The notes under the pieces are model-generated. The model had not been told where the DNA came from. It did not search any database and worked only from the letters and a program-made list of their open reading frames with translations. DNA of 32,892 nt, taken from NCBI GenBank assembly GCA_903834465.1, contig CAILJB010000032.1:1-32892 (forward strand). Reading direction: 5' to 3'. This document shows, one piece after another, positions 21,722 to 32,892 of the stretch; within the stretch, counting starts at the first letter, position 1, and every line of letters begins with the position of its first letter. A program made the position numbers and the translations under genes. The stretch is from an uncultured Pseudomonadota bacterium (GTDB lineage: Bacteria > Pseudomonadota > Gammaproteobacteria > Methylococcales > Methylomonadaceae).

Positions 21722-23587
21722 TTAAAAATCTTTAGGTTCTTTGGCTCTGCGAGACGTTGAACTCAAACGTTTTTTGTTTTTATCGTTTTTGGCTTTAAAG
21801 CTGTCATCGAACTTTGCCGGTTTTTTACCTTCGCCCCGCGAAACGCTGCTGCCATCAAGGGGCGTGATATTTAACAACTGCCCTGCAACGCGTACTTTGC
21901 GTAACTCTTGTAACAATTCTTTTGGCATGCCAGCTGGTAATTCCACAGTGCTATAATTGTCTTCAATACGAATGCGAGCAATATGTTCGCCATCAATTCC
22001 CGTTTCATTTGCAATCGCACCAACAATATTTCCCGGTTTTACGCCGTGTGCATGACCGACATCAATACGGAACGTTTCCATTTCAATATTCGACGCGCCA
22101 AAGTCACGTCTTGGGCGACGTTCACTTGATTCGCCACGACTTGGACGCTCATTTCTATCACGCGAGCCACGTCCTTCTGAACGAGAATCTCTGCGAGCCG
22201 GTCTTTCATCGCGATCACGGTCGCGTTCTGACACTTTTTTAGGCGGTGACATGAGCAACGGTTCGTCGCCTTGTACTAATTTCGCCAACGCTGCGCCAAT
22301 TTCCAACGCCGTCACATTGTGTTCTTGCTGATATTGCTCAATCAATTGACTAAAGAAGCTCAATTCTGCAGCAGCCAACGTATCGGTAATATTTTGTTTG
22401 AAACGCGCAATACGTTTATTGTTGATGATTTCAGTTGAAGGCAATCCCATTTCTTCAACTTTTTGTTTGGTCGCACGTTCAATATTTGCAAGCAATTTAC
22501 GTTCACGCGGTGCGATAAATAAAATAGCATCGCCAGTACGTCCTGCACGACCGGTACGACCGATACGATGCACATACGATTCGGTGTCGTAAGGAATATC
22601 GTAATTCACAACATGCGTAATACGGTCTACGTCCAAACCACGCGCCGCGACATCTGTTGCAATTAAAATGTCCAATTTACCATTTTTCAAATGGCTAATA
22701 GCTCGTTCACGCAACGTTTGCGACATATCGCCGTTAATGGCTGCCGCAGAATAACCACGCGCTTCTAATTTTTCAGCAAGTTCAATCGTTGCGGTTTTTG
22801 TTCGCACGAAAATAATCATGCCGTCAAAGGTTTCGGCTTCTAAAATACGTGTCAACGCATCTAATTTATGCACACCGCTAACGAGCCAATAACGTTGACG
22901 AATATTTTCCGCTGACGCATTGGTAACTTTAATCGTAACGTGTTCAGGTTTGTGCAAATATTTTTCCGTCATTTTACGAATAACGCTCGGCATTGTTGCC
23001 GAGAACAACGCAATCTGACGATTATCTGGCGTTTGTTCTAAAATCCATTCGACATCATCAATAAAGCCCATACGCAACATTTCGTCGGCTTCATCGAGAA
23101 CCAAAAATTTCAAATTTTCAAGTGAGAGCGTGCCTTTACGCATGTGATCCATCACACGACCTGGTGTACCGACAACAACTTGTGCGCCGCGTTTGAGTTG
23201 ACGTAATTGCGTGCCGTAATCTTGACCGCCGTAAATAGGCAAGACATGAAAATCTTTTAAATGTGACGCATAACGTTGGAACGCTTCGGCAACTTGAATA
23301 GCTAATTCGCGCGTTGGAGCTAAGACTAAAACTTGTGGGTCTTTTTGTTTTAAATCAATGCGTGACAAAATTGGAAGCGCGAAGGCTGCGGTTTTACCGG
23401 TGCCGGTTTGCGCTTGACCTAAAACATCTTTGCCATCGAGGATGTAGGGGATTGTTTGTGCTTGAATAGGTGATGGGGTCTCGTAACCAACTTCTTTGAG
23501 GGCTTTAAGCACTGGCTCAATAAGACCTAAATCACGAAATGATAATAAAGGAGATGTATCGTTAGACGAGGATGTATCGTTAGACAT
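21722..23587 (-). CDS. deaD: DEAD-box ATP-dependent RNA helicase
   Basis: 621 residues. Q-motif region YETPSPIQAQTIP (35-47), Walker A AQTGTGKT (59-66), PTRELA (91-96), DEAD at 165-168, SAT (LFSATMP) and HRIGRTGRAG are in order. After the core comes an Arg/Asp/Glu-rich disordered linker (about 450-490), then a DbpA/CsdA-type RNA-binding domain (FRIDVGHAHGVKPGNIVGAI) and a basic tail. This fits DeaD/CsdA, a cold-shock helicase in ribosome assembly and RNA decay. The start ATG has AGG seven bases upstream. A likely leader of about 60 bases precedes it. The first residues contain a tandem duplication (SNDTSS-SNDTSP). Confidence 0.95.
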   Translation of the reverse strand: MSNDTSSSNDTSPLLSFRDLGLIEPVLKALKEVGYETPSPIQAQTIPYILDGKDVLGQAQTGTGKTAAFALPILSRIDLKQKDPQVLVLAPTRELAIQVAEAFQRYASHLKDFHVLPIYGGQDYGTQLRQLKRGAQVVVGTPGRVMDHMRKGTLSLENLKFLVLDEADEMLRMGFIDDVEWILEQTPDNRQIALFSATMPSVIRKMTEKYLHKPEHVTIKVTNASAENIRQRYWLVSGVHKLDALTRILEAETFDGMIIFVRTKTATIELAEKLEARGYSAAAINGDMSQTLRERAISHLKNGKLDILIATDVAARGLDVDRITHVVNYDIPYDTESYVHRIGRTGRAGRTGDAILFIAPRERKLLANIERATKQKVEEMGLPSTEIINNKRIARFKQNITDTLAAAELSFFSQLIEQYQQEHNVTALEIGAALAKLVQGDEPLLMSPPKKVSERDRDRDERPARRDSRSEGRGSRDRNERPSRGESSERRPRRDFGASNIEMETFRIDVGHAHGVKPGNIVGAIANETGIDGEHIARIRIEDNYSTVELPAGMPKELLQELRKVRVAGQLLNITPLDGSSVSRGEGKKPAKFDDSFKAKNDKNKKRLSSTSRRAKEPKDF

Positions 23588-23588
23588 G
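23553..23588 (-). repeat. 18-bp tandem repeat at the 5' end of deaD
   Basis: The 15-base word GATGTATCGTTAGAC occurs at 23553-23567 and again at 23571-23585, period 18. It encodes the doubled SNDTS segment without breaking frame. Likely a slippage duplication. Confidence 0.7.
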
Positions 23589-23653
23589 GTTTACCTGTTG
23601 TAAAATATGGGATGCGCGATTGCGCGGAGAGGGTATTCATTTTTGATGTTTGA

Positions 23654-23659
23654 ATTATA
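23654..23659 (-). promoter_or_regulatory. Candidate -10 box of deaD
   Basis: TATAAT on the minus strand (ATTATA on +), about 67 bases upstream of the deaD ATG. No good -35 at 16-18 bases, so support is limited. A leader of about 60 bases would suit a cold-regulated helicase. Confidence 0.35.
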
Positions 23660-23708
23660 ACGCATTTGTAAGCTATTCTGCTAATTTAGGCATTTTTAAG
23701 AATTTGCT

Positions 23709-23717
23709 TGTTATAAT
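23709..23717 (+). promoter_or_regulatory. Extended -10 promoter of dapA
   Basis: TGTTATAAT (23709-23717) is a perfect extended -10 element (TGN-TATAAT), which can act without a strong -35. The start codon is 43 bases downstream. It faces away from the candidate deaD promoter. Confidence 0.5.
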
Positions 23718-23759
23718 GCTTACCATAAAACTTTTATTTCTAACCCATCGAGAGCTTTC

Positions 23760-24635
23760 ATGATTCAAGGTAGTATTGTCGCATTAGTCACCCCAATGGA
23801 CAGTCAAGGTGCTGTAGACTTCAATAGTTTAGGTGCATTGTGCGAATTTCACATTGAGCAAGGTACAGATTCTTTAGTTGCAGTTGGTACGACGGGCGAA
23901 TCAGCAACATTAAGCGAAAACGAACATTGCCAAGTCATTAAATTTATTGTTGATAAAGTAGCTGGGCGTATTCCTGTCATCGCCGGCACAGGTTCAAATT
24001 CAACCGTCGAAGCCATTAACTTAACCCGTAAAGCAAAAGAATTAGGTGCCGATGCGTGTTTAATCGTTACGCCTTATTACAATAAACCGACACAAGAAGG
24101 GCTATATTTACACCACAAAGCCATTGCCGAAGCAGTAGACATTCCACAAATTTTATACAATGTTCCGGGTCGCACCGCGTGCGATATGTTGCCCGAAACG
24201 GTTGGACGTTTGTCAAAAATCCCTAATATTGTTGGCGTAAAAGAAGCCACTGGCGATTTATCTCGCGTCGCGAAATTGCGCGAATTAACGCGCCCCGATT
24301 TCGCTTTATATACTGGCGATGATGCGACAAGCCGCGAATTTTGTTTATTAGGTGGTAACGGCACAATTACCGTGACCGGTAACGTCGCACCACGTTTAGT
24401 CCATGAAATGATTACCGCTGCCATTAACGGTAATGCGGAACTGTCGGAAGAAATTGACCGTAAAATTACGGGCTTGCACAGCAGTTTGTTCATTCAAGCC
24501 AATCCGATTCCGGTGAAATGGGCAGTGGCTGAAATGGGTTTAATGGGCAACGGTATTCGTCTTCCATTAACGTGGTTGAGCGAAGAATGTTTTGAAACGG
24601 TTCGTGCTGCCATGCGTCAAGCTGGTGTAATTTAA
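23760..24635 (+). CDS. dapA: 4-hydroxy-tetrahydrodipicolinate synthase
   Basis: Cytoplasmic 291-residue aldolase condensing pyruvate with aspartate semialdehyde, first step of the lysine/meso-diaminopimelate branch. Catalytic residues: Lys161 (Schiff base, in [10 protein letters not shown]), Tyr133 (in LYNVPGRT), Thr44-Thr45 (GTTGES). [20 protein letters not shown] is also typical. It uses the product of Asd, encoded at 7645. The start has GAGAG before it and an extended -10 promoter 43 bases up. It is directly followed by bamC, the conserved gammaproteobacterial order. Confidence 0.97.
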
Positions 24636-25355
24636 ATGATGAATCTAAAACAAATCCACACGCTTCAAAAAAGCGGATTTTTATTAGTGGTTGCTTGTGG
24701 ACTAAACGGTTGCAGTACGCTTCAAAGCTGGTTTCCCGATAAAGAAAAAGATTATCAATTTACCACTGAATTGCCGCCGCTAGTTATTCCACCGGATTTA
24801 GTGCAAAAACCGTCTATCCCCTCACGTTCTGCGCCGCCAGTTATTGCAAAGACCGTTGAACCTGTAACACCTGCAAAATCGGTTACAAAAACAATTGCGC
24901 CTGCAAGTGAATCCACGCCGATAACTCGTCCCGTTCTCACAGACGCAGAAACAGAATTATCACGCAATGAAATTCAAGTCAGCGTCACACACGAAAATGT
25001 ACCAACGTTGAATTTAAACGTACCGTCAGTACGAGCATGGCGAATTGTTGGCAAAGCATTAAGTCGTAGCGGCATTGAAGTTGTCAATCGCAATCAAGAT
25101 AGCGGACAAATTCAAATCCAAGTGGTCGATGCAAAACCCAAATCAGAATCCGAAAAATCATTGTTAGGCGAAACGTTTTCCGTTTTTGATAGTTTTATCA
25201 GTAATGAAAAAAGCTACATTTTGCAATTTCACGAAGCAAACACTAAAACGGCAGTCACTGTTTTAAACACAGAATTACAACCGATTACCGATGGCACAGA
25301 TAACAAATTACTCATGATTTTATTTGAAGCCATTAAAGCCGATTTGAGTAAATAA
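24636..25355 (+). CDS. bamC: Outer membrane assembly lipoprotein BamC (NlpB)
   Basis: 239 residues. Type II signal peptide with lipobox GLNGC (Cys26), then DKEKDYQFTTELPPLVIPPDL, the start typical of BamC, followed by a Pro-rich linker. A helix-grip domain with LNLNVPSVRAWRIVGKALSRSGIEV follows (about 125-240). Part of the BAM complex that inserts beta-barrel proteins into the outer membrane. It seems to have one clear globular domain where E. coli BamC has two, being shorter (239 against about 344). The ATG follows the dapA stop with no gap. The retropepsin-like gene starts two bases after its stop. Confidence 0.88.
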   Translation: MMNLKQIHTLQKSGFLLVVACGLNGCSTLQSWFPDKEKDYQFTTELPPLVIPPDLVQKPSIPSRSAPPVIAKTVEPVTPAKSVTKTIAPASESTPITRPVLTDAETELSRNEIQVSVTHENVPTLNLNVPSVRAWRIVGKALSRSGIEVVNRNQDSGQIQIQVVDAKPKSESEKSLLGETFSVFDSFISNEKSYILQFHEANTKTAVTVLNTELQPITDGTDNKLLMILFEAIKADLSK

Positions 25356-25357
25356 AC

Positions 25358-25888
25358 ATGAAGGCAAAAGCGTGGTGGCTTATTTTTATAATTAGCATTT
25401 TTAGCCACGCTGCCGATGCTGAAATTTATAAATGTTTATCAAATGGTCGTGATGCGACCTATCAAAATTCGCCGTGTAGCGAAAGTAAACAAACGGAAAT
25501 AAAAGTTAATTTGCCCACCCTCGAACGCAAACAAATCACACTTAAACATGTTGATAATGGACATTATCTGATTAACGCCGAGATAAATGGTGTTAAATTT
25601 CCCTTTCTGATTGATACCGGAGCATCCTTTGTTGTATTGACGAAACAACTTGCCGAGAAAGCAAAAATTACTTGTACAGGCATATTCGTCACAATGAATA
25701 CAGCAAACGGAAAAGTTCAGGATTGCGTTGCTTATGTATCAAAACTAACCATCGCGCCCTTTGAATTAAAAAATGTTGAAGTTCATATTGCGTCCAATCT
25801 AGCTACCTTGCCATTACTTGGCATGAGCGTCTTGCAGAAATTCAACATCGAACAACGTAATGGTGAAATGCACCTTTCTGAGCATTAA
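25358..25888 (+). CDS. Periplasmic retropepsin-like aspartic protease with DUF4124-like N-terminus
   Basis: 176 residues: signal peptide (1-21, SHAADA), then a short Cys-containing module (IYKCLSNGRDATYQNSPC, 24-40) as in DUF4124 proteins. From about residue 60 a clan AA aspartic protease domain follows, with the catalytic motif DTGAS (Asp87) and the LLGMSVLQKF segment that closes the fold. This matches the TIGR02281-like bacterial family, which acts as a dimer in the envelope. Substrate unknown. It is coupled to bamC (two-base gap). The DUF4124-plus-protease combination is known in proteobacteria but little studied. Confidence 0.85.
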   Translation: MKAKAWWLIFIISIFSHAADAEIYKCLSNGRDATYQNSPCSESKQTEIKVNLPTLERKQITLKHVDNGHYLINAEINGVKFPFLIDTGASFVVLTKQLAEKAKITCTGIFVTMNTANGKVQDCVAYVSKLTIAPFELKNVEVHIASNLATLPLLGMSVLQKFNIEQRNGEMHLSEH

Positions 25889-25897
25889 GTCTAAATA

Positions 25898-26032
25898 ATG
25901 ACCACTCAAAATCTCTACACCAAACTCAAACAAGCCAAAAGCGAAGAAGACGTTAAAGATATTTATATTCAAGCGTTGGGACAAAACGAAAGCGAGTTGA
26001 TAGAAAAATTAAATTTAATGGAACAAAAATGA
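25898..26032 (+). CDS. 44-residue open frame, likely N-terminal remnant of a type IIG-like restriction enzyme
   Basis: The product begins MTTQNLYTKLKQAKSEEDV and continues KDIYIQALG. From memory, an LYxxLxxAKxEEDVKDxYIxALG pattern opens large type IIG (endonuclease-methyltransferase fusion) proteins, where it is followed by a nuclease domain. Here the frame goes on for only 16 residues and stops. Its TGA overlaps the ATG of the next gene (ATGA), so it would be coupled to the endonuclease. No strong ribosome-binding site. Alternatives are a short leader or coupling peptide of the restriction cassette. It has no helix-turn-helix, so it is not a C-protein regulator. Confidence 0.5.
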   Translation: MTTQNLYTKLKQAKSEEDVKDIYIQALGQNESELIEKLNLMEQK

Positions 26033-27075
26033 CAGCAGGATTATTCGGATTAACAAATTCCAATCGAGATTTTGGAAAAGCTGACGCTTGGGGTAAAAAT
26101 CAATTTAACTCAAGTTTTCCAGCAGCTCTGTCTTGTTATCTTCGCAGCAAAGGTTTGGGCGCAAATTACATTTCAATGTCTAGCAATCTGTTTGCGATAA
26201 AAAACATTATGTTAGACGATGTTTTTGCAATAAATCCTCTATCGTCAAACGCCTATTTTGCTTTCGAGGCTCAATATACGCCATTCCAAAAATACGTTGT
26301 CAACACGCTACCTCGAACTGATTTGGTTGTTCTTGATAATTTAACAGGTCAATGTTTGCGAGGCTTAGAAGTCAAATTAACTGCATTGCCCGATAATACA
26401 ACGTGTAATTTTGGTGATGCAAAATTTGGCTCTGAAATTGTCGTTAGACCCGACACTATTGTTTATTTGGCTGCAAGTATTGCCAGCACTAGCATTTCAA
26501 CAATTGAACAGCACATAAAAAATAGTGGGATTGTTATTACAGATTGGTCAGATGCAGATGAAGTTATTGCAAATGTTAAAAAAATTATTGATTGCATTAC
26601 GCTAATTAGCATCGCCGTTGAAAAACAGCAACTGCCATTTTTGTTACAACCCGTTTGGAAAACTGTTGGTAAGTCTCCAAAACTTGCAGATAACTGTTTA
26701 GATGTTTTTGTTTGGAGTGATGCGGCATTTGCTTGGTTTATTGCTCAAGTATCAAAAGCTGAATGCACTGAAAATAAAATAACCAGACAAACGAGAACAA
26801 GCATTTGGTTATACAAAATGCTGTCAGACATTGTTAGTTATGGGAGATTTGACCACGTTGATATTATCGACAAACTTTCTTACAACACAAAAAATGATAA
26901 AGCCTTTGCTTCTGCTGGAAATGTAACTAACGCTTACATGACCTGTGACAATTTAACAAAACCACGAATTTCAAAAGAAGAAATCAAAAATATCATTTTA
27001 GGCGGCGGACAAAATTTATTAAGTCCCGAACGTCGTTTTGATGCGATTATTTTCAACTCACCCGAGTTATTTTAA
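26029..27075 (+). CDS. Type II restriction endonuclease, HindVP-like
   Basis: 348 residues. The N-terminus (GLFGLTNSNRDFGKADAWGK then NQFNSSFPAAL) resembles the HindVP restriction endonuclease family, whose founding member cuts GRCGYC. A PD-(D/E)xK-like core is visible: Asp98 in PRTDLVVLD and Glu114-Val-Lys116 in LRGLEVKLTALPD. Assignment rests on recalled similarity, so site specificity is a prediction. The start is fixed by the ATGA overlap with the 44-residue frame. The stop shares one base with the methyltransferase start (TAATG). The region seems more AT-rich than flanking genes, consistent with horizontal gain. Confidence 0.7.
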   Translation: MTAGLFGLTNSNRDFGKADAWGKNQFNSSFPAALSCYLRSKGLGANYISMSSNLFAIKNIMLDDVFAINPLSSNAYFAFEAQYTPFQKYVVNTLPRTDLVVLDNLTGQCLRGLEVKLTALPDNTTCNFGDAKFGSEIVVRPDTIVYLAASIASTSISTIEQHIKNSGIVITDWSDADEVIANVKKIIDCITLISIAVEKQQLPFLLQPVWKTVGKSPKLADNCLDVFVWSDAAFAWFIAQVSKAECTENKITRQTRTSIWLYKMLSDIVSYGRFDHVDIIDKLSYNTKNDKAFASAGNVTNAYMTCDNLTKPRISKEEIKNIILGGGQNLLSPERRFDAIIFNSPELF

Positions 27076-27983
27076 TGAAAACGGTGGATTTATTTTGTGG
27101 TTGCGGCGGCTTATCTCTAGGGTTTGAGCAAGCAGGATTTGAAATTTTAGTTGGATTCGATAATTGGAAACCTGCAATTGAAGTCTATAACGCGAATTTT
27201 AATCATCCTGTTATAGAGCAGAATCTATGCAACGAACACGAAACGATAAAAATCATTCAGAAATTTTCCCCTGAAATCATAATCGGCGGAACACCCTGTC
27301 AAGATTTTTCAAGTGCAGGAAAACAGAACATAAATGGCGGCAAAGCCGTTCTGACTAGTCATTTTACAAATGTTGTTTGTAACATTAAACCCAAATGGTT
27401 TGTTATGGAAAATGTTGAGCGCATTGTCAAAAACGAAATGTATCACGACATAAGAAAGCAGTTTGTAAATAACGGTTATGGCTTAACAGCAATAACGTTA
27501 AACGCTTCACTTTGTGGTGTCCCACAAAAACGCTCACGATTTTTTCTAATTGGTGAGCTTGGTGGAAAACAGGATGCTTTACTCGATCTGATTCAAATCC
27601 GTTTAGCAAAAAAAATGATGACTATTCGTGATTATTTTGGTGAAAAATTAAACCTGCAATACTACTACCGACATCCTAGAAGTTATGCAAGGCGGGGTAT
27701 ATTTTCAATCGACGAACCCAGTCCAACTATTAGGGGTGTTAATAGACCAATGCCGCCTAATTACAAATTGCACAGCGGTGATCCACAGGATATTGACTTA
27801 AAAACCGTAAGACCACTAACCACATTGGAGCGAAGTTATTTACAAACTTTTCCAGAATCATTCAATTTTTTTGGTACAAAAACAAATCTTGAACAAATGA
27901 TTGGTAATGCCGTTCCTGTAAATATGGCTAAATTTGTTGCATTAACCATCATGGAATATGTGCGCGTGATGAATTTAAATTGA
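27075..27983 (+). CDS. C5-cytosine DNA methyltransferase of the restriction system
   Basis: 302 residues with the standard motif order: motif I DLFCGCGGLSLGF (5-17), motif IV PCQ with catalytic Cys75, motif VI ENV (112-114), motif VIII PQKRSRFF (150-157), a target-recognition region (about 180-245), motif IX RPLTTLERSYLQTFP (246-260) and motif X GNAVPVN (277-283). It would protect sites cut by the adjacent endonuclease. The start overlaps the endonuclease stop by one base. The last few codons run into sequence that in another frame encodes the following remnant, so the C-terminus may be non-native. Confidence 0.92.
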   Translation: MKTVDLFCGCGGLSLGFEQAGFEILVGFDNWKPAIEVYNANFNHPVIEQNLCNEHETIKIIQKFSPEIIIGGTPCQDFSSAGKQNINGGKAVLTSHFTNVVCNIKPKWFVMENVERIVKNEMYHDIRKQFVNNGYGLTAITLNASLCGVPQKRSRFFLIGELGGKQDALLDLIQIRLAKKMMTIRDYFGEKLNLQYYYRHPRSYARRGIFSIDEPSPTIRGVNRPMPPNYKLHSGDPQDIDLKTVRPLTTLERSYLQTFPESFNFFGTKTNLEQMIGNAVPVNMAKFVALTIMEYVRVMNLN

Positions 27984-28156
27984 ATCGCGCCGATGTGGGC
28001 TGGTATCAAATTCGTAATGCGCTGAAAAAACGTATTGAAACACCTGTTGATTTTGATGAGTTTGAAACTACTTATAAAAACCTGAGCGCGAAATTGCAGC
28101 CGTTGGTGTTTGAGCTGGGATTTTTTGCGGGCTTGATTAAATTTTTAGGAAAAACG
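27968..28156 (+). pseudogene. C-terminal remnant of a type IIG-like restriction enzyme
   Basis: In the frame that continues into the DUF167 gene, the codons from 27968 read DEFKLNRADVGWYQIRNALK and then a VDFDEFETTYKNLSAKL segment ending FELGFFAGL. This looks like conserved protein, not random sequence. I recall a similar ending (WYQIR-ALK...VDF..FE..Y..L..KL.P.V.ELGF) at the C-termini of large type IIG/N6-adenine restriction-methylation enzymes. A TTG at 27980 could start it, fusing about 59 residues to DUF167, but no ribosome-binding site supports that. No start or catalytic region remains. Confidence 0.5.
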
Positions 28157-28474
28157 ATGAGCAATAAACAATTAACCATGAATTCCTTTTGTGCGTGGGA
28201 CGGCGAAACCTTAGTGCTTAACATTTTAGGCAAACCGAGTGCAAAACAAGATGTGATTGGCAAAGCGAAAGGAAATCAACTAAAAATTAGTGTGACTGCA
28301 GCACCCGTGGGCGGAAAGGCAACCGACCACATGGTTCGATTTTTGGCGCGAGAATTTGGCGTGACAAATGCCGATATTGAAGTTGTTTTTGGGCGATTCA
28401 ATGTGAATAAACAACTCCGCATTAAATTACCTAAAACCTTACCGCCCGTGATTAGCAAACAATTAGCGAGCTAA
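28157..28474 (+). CDS. DUF167 (YggU-like) protein
   Basis: 105 residues, small soluble alpha/beta protein. The core VLNILGKPSAKQDVIG, then LKISVTAAPVGGKATDHMV and the closing FGRFNVNKQLRIKL are the DUF167 signature. Function unknown; E. coli YggU is the model. The start ATG at 28157 has AGGA eight bases upstream and gives the usual N-terminus. The open frame upstream (to 27980) belongs to the restriction enzyme remnant. It precedes purL by 54 bases. Confidence 0.88.
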   Translation: MSNKQLTMNSFCAWDGETLVLNILGKPSAKQDVIGKAKGNQLKISVTAAPVGGKATDHMVRFLAREFGVTNADIEVVFGRFNVNKQLRIKLPKTLPPVISKQLAS

Positions 28475-28528
28475 CCGAACGGAAAAATAATTTAAACTAC
28501 CCTTCTTTTTCATTTTTACAAAAAACTC

Positions 28529-31500
28529 ATGCAAAAACTCATCAGCACCGCTGCATTATCTGACTTTCGTTTAGAAAAATTACTTTCTGAATTACAAAGC
28601 ATTCAACCTGACATCCAAAAAGTTGCCGCCCGATTTGTGCATTTTGTTTCAGGCACATTGACCGCCGAGCAACAAACCGTTTTAGAACAACTTTTAACTT
28701 ACGGTTCACCAAATTCTGTTGCAGAAGAAGGCGAATGTTTATTAGTCGTGCCACGTTCGGGAACAATTTCACCGTGGTCAAGCAAAGCCACGGACATCGC
28801 GCACCGTTGTGGATTAACAGACGTTGAACGTATCGAACGTGGCATTGAATACTTCATTGTCAGCGCATCGCCATTAAATGAAAACGTTGCCAAAAAATTA
28901 CATGACCGCATGACGCAAACCGTTGTCTTTGACCAAACGAATTTAGAACTTTTCGCGCATCATGAACCACAACCGCTGCAACGTGTGAATGTGATTGAAC
29001 AAGGTCGTGACGCGCTAGTTGCTGCAAATACGAATTTAGGTTTAGCGTTGTCAGCAGACGAAATCGATTACTTAACCGACGCATTTGTGCAACTTGAACG
29101 TAATCCAACTGACGTTGAATTGATGATGTTCGCGCAGGCAAATTCGGAACATTGCCGTCACAAAATTTTTAACGCGAGTTGGACAATCGATGGCATTGAA
29201 CAAGCGCAATCGCTGTTCAAAATGATTCGCTACACGTCCGAAGTTAGCCCACACGGCATTTTGTCAGCGTATCACGATAATGCGTCAGTGGTTGAAAATG
29301 CTCAGACGCAAGTGTTTATCCGTAATCCTCACACGGGCGAATATAGCTACACCGAAGAAGCCGCGCATTTATTGATGAAAGTGGAAACGCATAATCATCC
29401 GACAGCAATTTCACCGTATTCGGGCGCGGCGACGGGTTCGGGTGGTGAAATTCGTGACGAAGGCGCAACAGGTCGCGGTTCAACACCGAAAGCAGGTTTA
29501 ACAGGTTTTTCAGTGTCGCATTTACAAATTCCCGATTTCGCGCAACCGTGGGAACAAGCCAACGGCAAACCTGAACGCATCGCTTCCGCGTTAGACATCA
29601 TGATTGAAGCCCCGCTCGGCGGCGCGGCGTTTAACAATGAATTCGGTCGTCCGAATTTGGCGGGTTATTTCAGAACGTTTGAGCAACCTGTTTTGGGGAG
29701 CGATAACGAATTACGCGGCTATCACAAACCAATTATGATTGCAGGCGGCTTAGGTTCAATTCGCCCAATGTTGATTAACAAACAACCCATTCCAGCAGGT
29801 TCGCTCATCATTATTTTGGGTGGCCCTGCGATGTTAATTGGGCTAGGTGGTGGTGCGGCATCGTCGCAAGCATCAGGTGAAAGCTCTGAAACGCTTGATT
29901 TCGCCAGCGTCCAACGTGAAAACCCTGAAATGGAACGCCGTTGCCAAGAAGTCATCAATCATTGCAACGCGCTCGGTGAAAATACGCCGATTGTGTCGAT
30001 TCACGACATTGGCGCAGGCGGTTTGTCGAATGCCGTGCCTGAAATCATCCACGATTGTGAACGCGGCGGATGTTTTGAATTACGCAACGTACAAAACGCC
30101 GATTTAGGCATGTCACCAATGCAAATTTGGTGCAACGAAGCGCAAGAACGTTACGTTGTCGCCATCAAACCTGAATCACTCGAATTATTTAAAGCCTTCT
30201 GCGAACGCGAACATTGTTTATATGCCGTCATCGGCGAAGCGACTGACGAAGAACATTTAAGCCTTTCTGACAATTTATTAGGCGACAAACCTGTTGATTT
30301 ACCGATGTCCGTATTATTCGGTAAACCGCCCAAAATGCACCGCACCGTTGAACACGTTGCGCCAAATGTGGCAGCATTTAACGCTGAAAATATCGAACTC
30401 GCCGAAGCCATTAACCGCGTGTTAGCGTTCCCAGCCGTTGCGGATAAAAGTTTTCTGTGTCATATCGGCGACCGTTCAGTCACGGGTTTAGTGGCGCGTG
30501 ACCAAATGGTTGGACGCTGGCAAATTCCTGTCGCTGATGTCGCGGTCACAACGTCTGGTTTTCAAGCGACAACAGGCGAAGCGATGGCGATGGGTGAACG
30601 CTCGCCGATTGCCGTCATTAACGCGCCTGCTTCGGGACGTATGGCAATTGGTGAGGCGTTGACGAATTTGGCTGCGTCGCGAATTGATGCCGTGCGAGAT
30701 ATTAAATTATCGGCAAATTGGATGGCAGCAACAGGCGTTGCAGGTGAAGATGCTGCGTTATTTGATACAGTGAAAGCCGTTGGTTTAGAACTTTGTCCCG
30801 AATTAGGGATTGCGATTCCTGTCGGCAAAGATTCGCTTTCGATGAAAACTGTGTGGCGTGACGAGGCGGGCGAAAAAACCATGACTGCGCCGTTGTCGTT
30901 AATTATCACAGCGTTTGCACCTGTTTTGGATGTGACGAAAACGCTCACCCCCGAATTACAAGCCCTTGAAAATAGTGTATTGCTGTTGATTGATTTAGGT
31001 GCAGGCAAAAATCGTTTAGGTGGTTCAGTTCTCGCGCAAGTTTATAACCAATTAGGTGACAACTGCCCTGATGTGGACGATGCGAAACGTTTGAAAGCGT
31101 TTTTTGAATCTATCCAAGCCTTGAATCATCAACAAAAATTGCTCGCTTATCACGACCGTTCAGACGGTGGTTTGCTTGCGGTTGCCGCTGAAATGCTTTT
31201 TGCTAGCCGTTTGGAAGTGAATTTAAATTTAAGCGGCGATGTTTTAAGCGAATTATTCAACGAAGAATTAGGCGCAGTGGTTCAAGTCAAAGCCGAAGAT
31301 TTAGCGGGCGTAAAAACGTTATTCACACACAATGGATTAGTCGATTGCGTATTTGAAATCGGCACAGTCGGCACGCATGAAAATCAACAATTGAACATTT
31401 CAAAGTCAGGCGAAGTGATTTACAGCGAAACTCGCGCAAATTTGCAAAAAACGTGGTCAGAACTCAGTTATCGGATGCAAGCATTACGCGATAATCCAGC

Positions 31501-32380
31501 ATGTGCGAAACAAGAGTTTGAACAAATCGCCGACGATTCAGATCGTGGTTTGCATGCACTTTTGACGTTTGATGTACGCGAAGATGTTGCTGCCCCATTT
31601 TTAAATTTGAGTCGTCCAAAAGTAGCGATTTTGCGTGAACAAGGTGTAAATGGTCACGTCGAAATGGCGGCAGCGTTTAATCGCACAGGTTTTACCAGCA
31701 TCGACGTTCACATGAGCGACATTATTCACGGTCGCGTTAGCTTGCAAGATTTCAAAGGTTTAGTGGCTTGCGGCGGATTTTCTTATGGCGATGTTTTAGG
31801 AGCAGGCGGCGGCTGGGCAAAATCGATTTTATTCAATCCGCGTGCGCGTGATGAATTCGCGGCATTTTTTGCGCGTGAAGATACCTTTAGTTTAGGCGTT
31901 TGTAATGGCTGTCAAATGTTGTCTGGCTTAAAAGAAATTATCCCGAACGCGCAACATTGGGCGCGTTTTGCACGAAATAATTCAGAACAATTTGAAGCGC
32001 GTGTGGCAATGGTAAAAGTTGAAGAATCGCCTTCGGTTTTATTCGCAGGAATGGCAGGTTCAAGGATGCCTGTTGTGGTGGCACATGGTGAAGGTCGTGC
32101 GGTATTTTCACAAAATCTGCAAGCGGCGGTTGAAGCAAAAATGATTGCGCTATCTTATGTCGATTCGCGCGGCGTACCGACAACCGATTTCCCTGCGAAT
32201 CCAAATGGTTCTCCGTTTGGGATTACAGGTTTAACAACAACGGACGGCAAAGTTACCATCATGATGCCCCATCCTGAACGTTGTTTTAGAACCTTGCAAA
32301 ACTCTTGGCATCCGCAAGATTGGGACAAGGATGGTGCGTGGTTGCGATTGTTTAGTAATGCGCGTGTTTGGGTCGGCTAA
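28529..32380 (+). CDS. purL: Phosphoribosylformylglycinamidine synthase
   Basis: 1283 residues, the large single-chain form of gammaproteobacteria. It converts FGAR to FGAM with glutamine and ATP in purine synthesis. Order: N-terminal and linker domain, tandem AIRS-like catalytic halves ([20 protein letters not shown] with [26 protein letters not shown]), and a C-terminal class I glutaminase. In the glutaminase, nucleophile Cys1125 lies in GVCNGCQM, with His/Glu of [10 protein letters not shown] near the end. The upstream 54 bases are AT-rich with no clear promoter. It is followed by a strong terminator. Confidence 0.97.
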
Positions 32381-32388
32381 ACTGCAAT

Positions 32389-32426
32389 AAAAAAGGGCGA
32401 TGTTTAACAGCATCGCCCTTTTTTTT
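32389..32426. terminator. Bidirectional intrinsic terminator of purL and the FUN14 gene
   Basis: AAAAAAGGGCGATG (32389-32402) pairs with CATCGCCCTTTTTT (32411-32424), with an eight-base loop and a T-run on the + side and an A-run on the other. It separates two convergent genes. Confidence 0.9.
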
Positions 32427-32446
32427 ATTTTGTATTTTCAATACCG

Positions 32447-32770
32447 TCAGCCCATTTTAAAACCTAGTGCAAACCCAGCCGTGGCACTCACACCCTTTAC
32501 GGTGAAACGCGACAATCGCTCTAATAAAAAATCACTCGAATTTTTTGCAGCTTCAGCCGCAACATCTGTAGCATGTAAAAGTTCAGTATCTGTAATATGA
32601 ACAACGCCATAATATTCGGAAATAAATAAAATTACAACGACACCACCACCTAAAAATAAGGCAGTGCGTAACATTTTTTTTGCGAAATAGCCAACTGCAA
32701 TCCCCAAAATAAACGGTGCGCCAACGTTACTAATCAAAGAAGGTGTAGAGAATATATCTTGATTATCCAT
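32447..32770 (-). CDS. FUN14-family membrane protein
   Basis: 107 residues, inner-membrane. Hydrophobic segments lie at about 13-30 (SNVGAPFILGIAVGYFAKK), 34-52 and 88-107, the last ending GVSATAGFALGFKMG. The glycine-rich first and last helices are characteristic of FUN14 proteins. Bacterial function unknown. The ATG at 32770 is chosen because a longer open frame would run through the 5S rRNA terminator and into the 5S gene. No clear ribosome-binding site. Lies directly behind the rRNA operon terminator on the same strand. Confidence 0.75.
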   Translation of the reverse strand: MDNQDIFSTPSLISNVGAPFILGIAVGYFAKKMLRTALFLGGGVVVILFISEYYGVVHITDTELLHATDVAAEAAKNSSDFLLERLSRFTVKGVSATAGFALGFKMG

Positions 32771-32798
32771 GCAGTAATTTTCATTTAGGTTGAAAACA

Positions 32799-32832
32799 AA
32801 AAAGCCCAAAATCATCAAGATTTTAGGCTTTT
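32799..32832 (-). terminator. Terminator of the 5S rRNA / rRNA operon
   Basis: On the minus strand AAAAGCCTAAAATC (32832-32819) pairs with GATTTTGGGCTTTT (32813-32800), using one G-U pair, then TT. The wobble pairs only in minus-strand RNA, which gives the direction. It lies just after the 5S 3' end. Confidence 0.85.
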
Positions 32833-32844
32833 CGTAAAAATAAG

Positions 32845-32892
32845 AGCTTGGCAATTCCCTACTTTCGCATGGCAAACTGCCACACTATCATC
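32845..32892 (-). rRNA. rrf: 5S ribosomal RNA, 3' part (truncated by the window)
   Basis: The reverse complement of the last 48 bases contains GATGATAGTGTGG, then CATGCGAAAGTAGGGAA and TGCCAAGC. This matches the 3' third of bacterial 5S rRNA (E. coli: GATGGTAGTGTGG, CATGCGAGAGTAGGGAA, TGCCAGGC). The 5' part lies beyond the window. The 3' end is placed by alignment and may be off by two bases. Confidence 0.93.

Follow-up and report, generated by a model that had tools for sequence, protein, structure and literature searches.

Furuta, Abe and Kobayashi reportedly described in 2010 the allelic substitution of restriction systems, in which one system is found in another's place; their cases are said to be swaps between flanking genes, in contrast to the swap considered here, which lies within a single reading frame. 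In Helicobacter pylori, hrgC replaced the PabI (HpyAXII) restriction-modification (RM) system, and 78 bp of the M.PabI 5′ end and 88 bp of the R.PabI 3′ end remain (PMC4615327). Restriction systems move without a known mobile element (PMC3874152), and restriction genes as mobile elements are also reviewed elsewhere (PMC10273834). We analysed a stretch of 32,892 bases (the window), one whole contig (C32) of a draft genome of 2.82 Mb in 135 contigs that is 97% complete. It carries a HindVP-type restriction endonuclease gene and a C5-cytosine DNA methyltransferase gene, which lie between two short pieces of a type IIG-like gene.

As in the PabI locus, a resident restriction system would have been replaced within its genes, with both ends left as scars (PMC4615327, PMC10273834). 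The two loci differ in that hrgC encodes a small predicted membrane protein and is in reverse orientation, whereas in the window a complete RM pair follows the old start codon and has the orientation of the old gene. Our literature search, which covered titles and openings of abstracts and for which subscription papers were mostly out of reach, returned no restriction pair nested in the ends of another restriction gene. Overwriting is known in kind, with hrgC/PabI as its close precedent, and the case in the window is well documented.

We consider it very probable that the interior of a resident type IIG-like gene gave way to a complete type II RM cassette (HindVP/BsaHI-type endonuclease and C5 methyltransferase) and that both ends of the gene stayed behind. 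Both outer pieces match one intact gene, in the same order and on the same strand, and codons ~29-741 of this gene are replaced. When only the window was searched by tblastn with the reference protein P0001 (the 805 amino acid (aa) product of the intact gene in the congener G001), the N-terminal piece matched residues 1-28 with 89% aa identity (E 9e-10), and the C-terminal piece matched residues 742-795 with 93% identity over 54 residues (E 9e-27). Searching the whole genome with P0001 also recovered both pieces (83% over 30 residues and 91% over 55). At the DNA level the N-terminal piece is 85% identical to G001 over 89 bp, and the C-terminal piece is 87% identical to G003 and 85% to G001 over 162 bp. 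The common source of the pieces, the full domains of the inserted genes, the EVK motif of the endonuclease and an empty site in two congeners all support replacement, as does the finding that the same type IIG-like family was hit by an Eco47II-type endonuclease with a C5 methyltransferase in two other genomes (G276, G269) and that a HindVP plus C5 pair lies in a type III gene pair in a third (G042). The features of this part of the window are as follows.

24636..25355, + strand: BamC-like lipoprotein gene, left neighbour (Pfam Lipoprotein_18, NlpB/DapX lipoprotein, 1e-07)
25358..25888, + strand: aspartyl protease gene, left anchor of the variable interval (Pfam PF13975, 3.6e-22)
25892..25981, + strand: N-terminal remnant of the type IIG-like gene, consisting of 6 bp of leader, the start codon (25898) and codons 1-28 (DNA and aa identity to G001)
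25982..26028, + strand: stretch without traced source, residues 29-44 of the 44 aa frame (leaders of five other HindVP genes compared)
26029..27075, + strand: HindVP/BsaHI-type restriction endonuclease, 348 aa (Pfam PF09519, RE_HindVP, 1.2e-137)
27075..27983, + strand: C5-cytosine DNA methyltransferase, 302 aa (Pfam PF00145, DNA_methylase, 8.4e-66)
27964..28134, + strand: C-terminal remnant of the type IIG-like gene, residues ~742-797 (DNA and aa identity to G003/G001)
28157..28474, + strand: DUF167 (YggU) gene with its own ATG at 28157 (Pfam PF02594, 2.2e-19)
28529..32380, + strand: purL, right anchor of the interval (named by reading of the frame, without family search)

The initial annotation had placed a HindVP-like endonuclease and a C5 methyltransferase between two short pieces, had taken these as the two ends of one type IIG-like gene, and had suggested that one restriction system was replaced by another inside this gene. 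The frames are as described and both inserted genes have full-length Pfam matches; the pieces correspond to the two ends of P0001, the motifs and predicted fold of their source agree with the type named, and a different pair fills the gap within the same source gene. The 44-residue frame had been read as an N-terminus as a whole, which holds for residues 1-28 and fails for the last 16. Among the names given to the flanking genes, those of the aspartyl protease, the NlpB/DapX lipoprotein and DUF167 were confirmed by Pfam, while purL is named by reading only. Two other origins of the pieces were considered and rejected, namely chance similarity of short sequences (the searches matched both ends of one gene) and descent from two different families (one gene accounts for both).

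The positions of both joints could be read from the alignments. On the left, DNA homology extends from 6 bp upstream of the old start codon through codon 28 of the frame 25898-26032, so that 28 of its 44 residues match the type IIG-like gene and the last 16 (DNA 25982-26028) do not. No source was found for this DNA; a comparison with five other HindVP genes showed no homology to their leaders. The TGA of the 44-residue frame overlaps the ATG of the endonuclease, an arrangement that is common in translational coupling. On the right, DNA homology restarts at ~27964, within the last codons of the methyltransferase, and the final residues and stop codon of the methyltransferase are read from type IIG-derived DNA in another frame. 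The C-terminal piece extends as far as the intact homologues do (ELGFLR); close to the end of the piece, a shift of one base brings it into the DUF167 frame without a stop between them, and the open frame 27980-28474 runs into DUF167. In the Pfam scan neither outer piece alone matched any family. A repeat search found no long direct repeat at the joints that would indicate a target duplication. A direct repeat of 19 of 25 positions (26008-26032 and 28136-28160) is present at the HindVP and DUF167 start regions; it is the best of 28 start pairs compared, is A+T-rich and may be due to chance.

The inserted genes were compared to the BsaHI/HgiDI/HindVP family, which recognises GRCGYC and in which the active enzymes BsaHI, HgiDI and HgiGI carry an ExK motif (PMC2413257). 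The endonuclease of the window shares with this family WGKNQF, KNDKAFA, SPERRFD and EVK, as well as the adjacent C5 methyltransferase (PMC2413257). HindVP itself lacks the ExK motif and is inactive by unpublished data (PMC2413257), whereas the catalytic EVK is present in the window endonuclease within RGLEVKLTALPD (alignment; motif assignment from PMC2413257). The endonuclease covers positions 1-332 of the 332 of the PF09519 profile, and the methyltransferase covers 1-322 of the 324 of PF00145 and adjoins the endonuclease, with its ATG overlapping the endonuclease stop. The closest complete endonuclease is the copy in G042 (78% aa identity; 69% for the methyltransferase). The pair would be the working system and would target GRCGYC or a related sequence.

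In order to place the source gene, we followed both pieces through other genomes. The C-terminal piece was matched in 10 of 101 genomes and the N-terminal piece in 8 of 101, the window's own genome counted in both. In G001, G009, G010, G025 and G042 (there twice) both hits are the ends of one open frame of 806-829 codons from stop to stop, corresponding to ~800-820 aa from the first start. The search with P0001 matched 25 of the 237 family genomes, the window's genome with the two end pieces only, and an order-wide search of 311 genomes added no further matching genome. There is no other type IIG match in the window's 97% complete genome, and therefore the pieces were not borrowed from a visible intact paralogue.

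The type IIG-like gene had no Pfam or NCBIfam match over cut-off and no meaningful match in the PDB by sequence or profile; PADLOC MTase_II gave weak matches (0.0027 for the G001 protein, 1.4e-6 for the protein of the viral locus L209). In alignments of 10 and 17 members the core of FKGAFYTP, DMCxGxGNLE and NPPY is invariant or nearly so, which we take to be motifs X, I and IV of an N6-adenine methyltransferase, and in the alignment of 17 the residues D35, E44 and K46 (numbering of the L209 protein) are at least 90% conserved and read as a PD-(D/E)XK nuclease motif. The conserved order in the family is D...EAK, FKGAFYTP, DMCxGxGNLE, NPPY and a C-terminal region. DrdV, MmeI and LlaBIII show the corresponding arrangement, with the EAK nuclease motif first, followed by motifs X and I, NPPY and a C-terminal region.

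For the fold test we used a viral homologue with 69% identity to P0001 and its AlphaFold model (mean predicted local distance difference test (pLDDT) score 83, predicted template modelling (pTM) score 0.65). DrdV, MmeI, LlaBIII and CamA were among its best PDB matches in Foldseek: DrdV with 9e-10 (ranks 1-6), the CamA methyltransferase with 1.4e-6, LlaBIII with 1.5e-6 and MmeI with 6.5e-6 (rank 31). The Foldseek probability was 1.00 but the global TM value only 0.2-0.3, meaning that the domains match and not their packing. From type IIG, IIL and ISP enzymes the source gene differs in having no family match over cut-off, in this low global TM and in having no helicase part as in ISP. On motifs and predicted fold we accept that the source of the remnants would be type IIG-like by architecture.

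The gene family is mobile, since it is found on small plasmids of Acinetobacter and Fluviibacter and in viral contigs, where 67 loci (L209-L275) were detected; at seven of these the identity is 53-69% across almost the whole length. The collection of phage records contained no match to the type IIG-like gene. Another viral contig (L199:3456-4819) carries the C-terminal third only (residues 530-796) behind a gene that reads as Fic-like.

For the chromosomal context, 18 genomes of the window's genus were available in the collection. In two of them, G002 and G015, purL follows almost directly after the aspartyl protease; homology of the window to these empty sites stops at 25888 and resumes at 28505. 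In G010 the interval (L064:6098-10256, contig G010:C13) holds an N-terminal part of dndC (first ~320 residues, TIGR03183 5e-101), an HNH nuclease that resembles phosphorothioate-dependent enzymes (NF045808 4e-30, below cut-off), a C-terminal part of dndD (residues 455-650 only, TIGR03185 2e-37, below cut-off) and a DndE/HerA-like gene. By these matches a putative restriction gene sits between the ends of another modification system, a phosphorothioation locus with its middle replaced. The empty sites and the disrupted dnd locus together indicate that the aspartyl protease-purL interval is a defence site, in line with the initial suggestion of a defence hotspot. The aspartyl protease was found in 8 of the 18 genomes (the G011 hit is just 38% identical) and shares the interval with purL in four, G000, G002, G010 and G015. 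In G001, G003 and G011 there was no purL near the protease in the stretches read, and in G009 the contig ends beside the protease.

Loci at which defence systems differ between strains are known from Streptococcus suis, where defence systems replace one another (PMC5398294), and from the variable immigration control region (ICR) of enteric bacteria (PMC12707154). They resemble the present interval in that one chromosomal position holds different defence systems in different genomes. Both are larger and well sampled, whereas here the gap between aspartyl protease and purL was compared in four genomes of one genus.

Overwriting was also found elsewhere. G276 (L132:2224-4842) carries RE_Eco47II and a C5 methyltransferase inside a gene of the same type IIG-like family, and G269 (L135:2607-4970), of another genus, has a copy that is degenerate and retains the C-terminal side together with a weak left relic (22 residues, E 0.005). 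Because the two loci are 77% identical over 2.3 kb and have the left relic in common, they apparently go back to one event. In G042 (L144:2826-7117, contig G042:C108) a HindVP plus C5 pair is flanked by an N-terminal part of a type III Mod (first ~90 residues) and the C-terminal two thirds of a type III Res (residues 323-896). Type IIG pieces adjoin 2 of the 23 Eco47II loci and 1 of the 15 HindVP loci examined (24 genomes matched Eco47II; the count excludes G169 and the second hits on two tiny contigs). Most of the other loci, among the matches listed and as read from their lists of open reading frames, some with short flanks, lie between housekeeping genes or genes of unknown function. Overwriting in the family is recurrent and not the rule, by a count that covered the loci of these two cassettes. 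In G101 (L141:3703-5790, contig G101:C42) a 695 aa frame has HindVP fused behind another C5 methyltransferase. In G220 (L145:1-7560, contig G220:C48) a HindVP plus C5 pair lies between inverted copies of a PDC-S06 (AAA_13) gene, and this locus also has an inverted fragment of a second C5 methyltransferase.

Four cases differ in the replaced system or the incoming gene: HindVP in type IIG, Eco47II in type IIG, HindVP in type III and an HNH nuclease in dnd. It is doubtful, though conceivable, that resident restriction or DNA modification genes are preferred landing sites of incoming RM cassettes in this family and are knocked out by them. If so, defence turnover would favour the overwriting of a competitor: the target gene would be dispensable and already part of an expressed operon, its loss would remove a rival, and the window would be a clean example among four seemingly independent ones. 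The family, with its different cassettes and victims, could serve to test whether replacement of a resident rival is random or favoured. In the window, the replacement of one bacterial immune system by another in a single reading frame can still be read, and intact, empty-site and differently occupied relatives are available for comparison. A further point of interest is the type IIG-like family, which has no name in Pfam or NCBIfam, is frequent on viral contigs and also occurs on small plasmids.

The replacement would have occurred by illegitimate recombination without a dedicated recombinase, in one step or as insertion plus deletion in two, leaving the end of the leader, the start codon and the first 28 codons on one side and the last ~55 codons on the other. 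Such an event in an expressed gene that the cell can do without agrees with the differing joints of the two type IIG cases and with the lack of a shared repeat at the window's joints, of tRNA genes (none in the window) and of an apparent recombinase (none by reading the frames listed in 22000-32892, with the family search limited to a Pfam scan). The new endonuclease would use the translation start of the old gene through stop-start coupling at the overlapping TGA and ATG, and the type IIG enzyme would be dead. The end pieces would be scars that probably serve, in a passive way, to maintain translational coupling along the operon.

The order of events within such a replacement may have been different: the middle of the type IIG-like gene could have been lost first by internal deletion, and the HindVP pair could have come later into a harmless remnant, with the same end result and no direct replacement. 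We regard this order as possible and give it a minor share of our confidence in the replacement. That middles can be lost without an insertion is shown by G003, whose gene, deleted in its middle and with nothing inserted, is an in-frame 278 aa form with residue ~147 joined to ~682, and the 47 bp of untraced origin before HindVP fit a multi-step history. The window has no G003-like join, however, and lacks residues 29-741, far beyond the loss in G003, so that descent from the G003 deletion would need further loss.

A wrong join of a type IIG and a HindVP contig could be suspected in a draft of 135 contigs. We hold such a misassembly to be very unlikely, given that the 97% complete genome contains no other type IIG match, that both joints lie within open overlapping frames and that other genomes have the same nesting with a different cassette. 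Equally improbable in our estimate is a movement of the type IIG-like gene and other restriction pairs as exchangeable cassettes between fixed recombination ends. This idea would account for ends that are kept in the window and G276 around different cassettes (HindVP or Eco47II), and for the end of the type IIG-like gene, which abuts or overlaps the following gene (within 9 bp) in all five congeners where this end is readable (G001, G003, G008, G009 and G010). Fixed ends are at odds with the joints, which lie at codons 28 and ~742 in the window and at ~200 and ~675-690 in G276 and G269, and there is no clear repeat shared by the window joints, the best candidate being the A+T-rich start regions with 19 of 25 positions. 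Moreover, 21 of the 23 Eco47II loci and 14 of the 15 HindVP loci in the family are without a type IIG piece.

The following observations were considered against the replacement of a resident gene by the RM cassette. An intact type IIG-like gene had been expected at the same place in relatives, and its absence had been named beforehand as a finding that would refute replacement; no copy at this interval was seen in any of the six congeners that have the gene in whole or in part (G001, G003, G007, G008, G009 and G010). Residence of the gene at the interval before its replacement is therefore something we infer. We do not regard the count as decisive, because the gene family is mobile and the gene order around DUF167 is fluid in the genus. 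Furthermore, the methyltransferase of the window has 302 aa compared to 323-327 aa in five family copies. A reading of the shortened tail as damage was rejected: copies of 299 and 301 aa also exist, and the length of the tail therefore says nothing. Finally, substitutions in the pieces were counted. Window-only changes amount to 2 synonymous and 1 non-synonymous in the N-terminal piece, and to 5 synonymous and 4 non-synonymous in the C-terminal piece, three of these four in the last two codons, past the frame shift; the same count gave 4 and 0 on the G001 branch and 1 and 2 on the G003 branch. These changes are too few to separate a young from a constrained scar.

In the nine congeners read, DUF167 lies elsewhere in the genome and has at least five different sets of neighbours; the window's genome has one copy. 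Based on these varying neighbourhoods and the single copy, DUF167 would have entered the interval with the type IIG-like gene or later. In G009 (L069:4724-5559, contig G009:C13) degenerate fragments of Eco47II and a C5 methyltransferase lie just upstream of DUF167, with no type IIG piece adjoining. The genome of the window contains two PmoA/AmoA-family genes, which suggest that the source organism is probably a methanotroph.

The recognition sequence expected for the HindVP-type pair was counted in the DNA of the genus. GRCGYC has 0 sites in the window versus 23.6 expected, and is equally depleted in pooled loci of ten congeners (6 versus 185 expected in 236 kb); HindVP was matched in none of these ten. 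We rejected this depletion as proof of which sequence the pair recognises, since congeners without HindVP are equally depleted and several other palindromes are as low. Per genome, GGCGCC occurs 0-13 times in 13 of the 18 genus genomes (6 in the window's own) and 52-376 times in the other five. In viral contigs none of eight HindVP pattern matches was confirmed. GRCGYC, GCGCGC, AGCGCT, RGCGCY and other palindromes are strongly depleted in the pooled genus loci with or without HindVP, and this depletion suggests a long history of many restriction systems in the genus.

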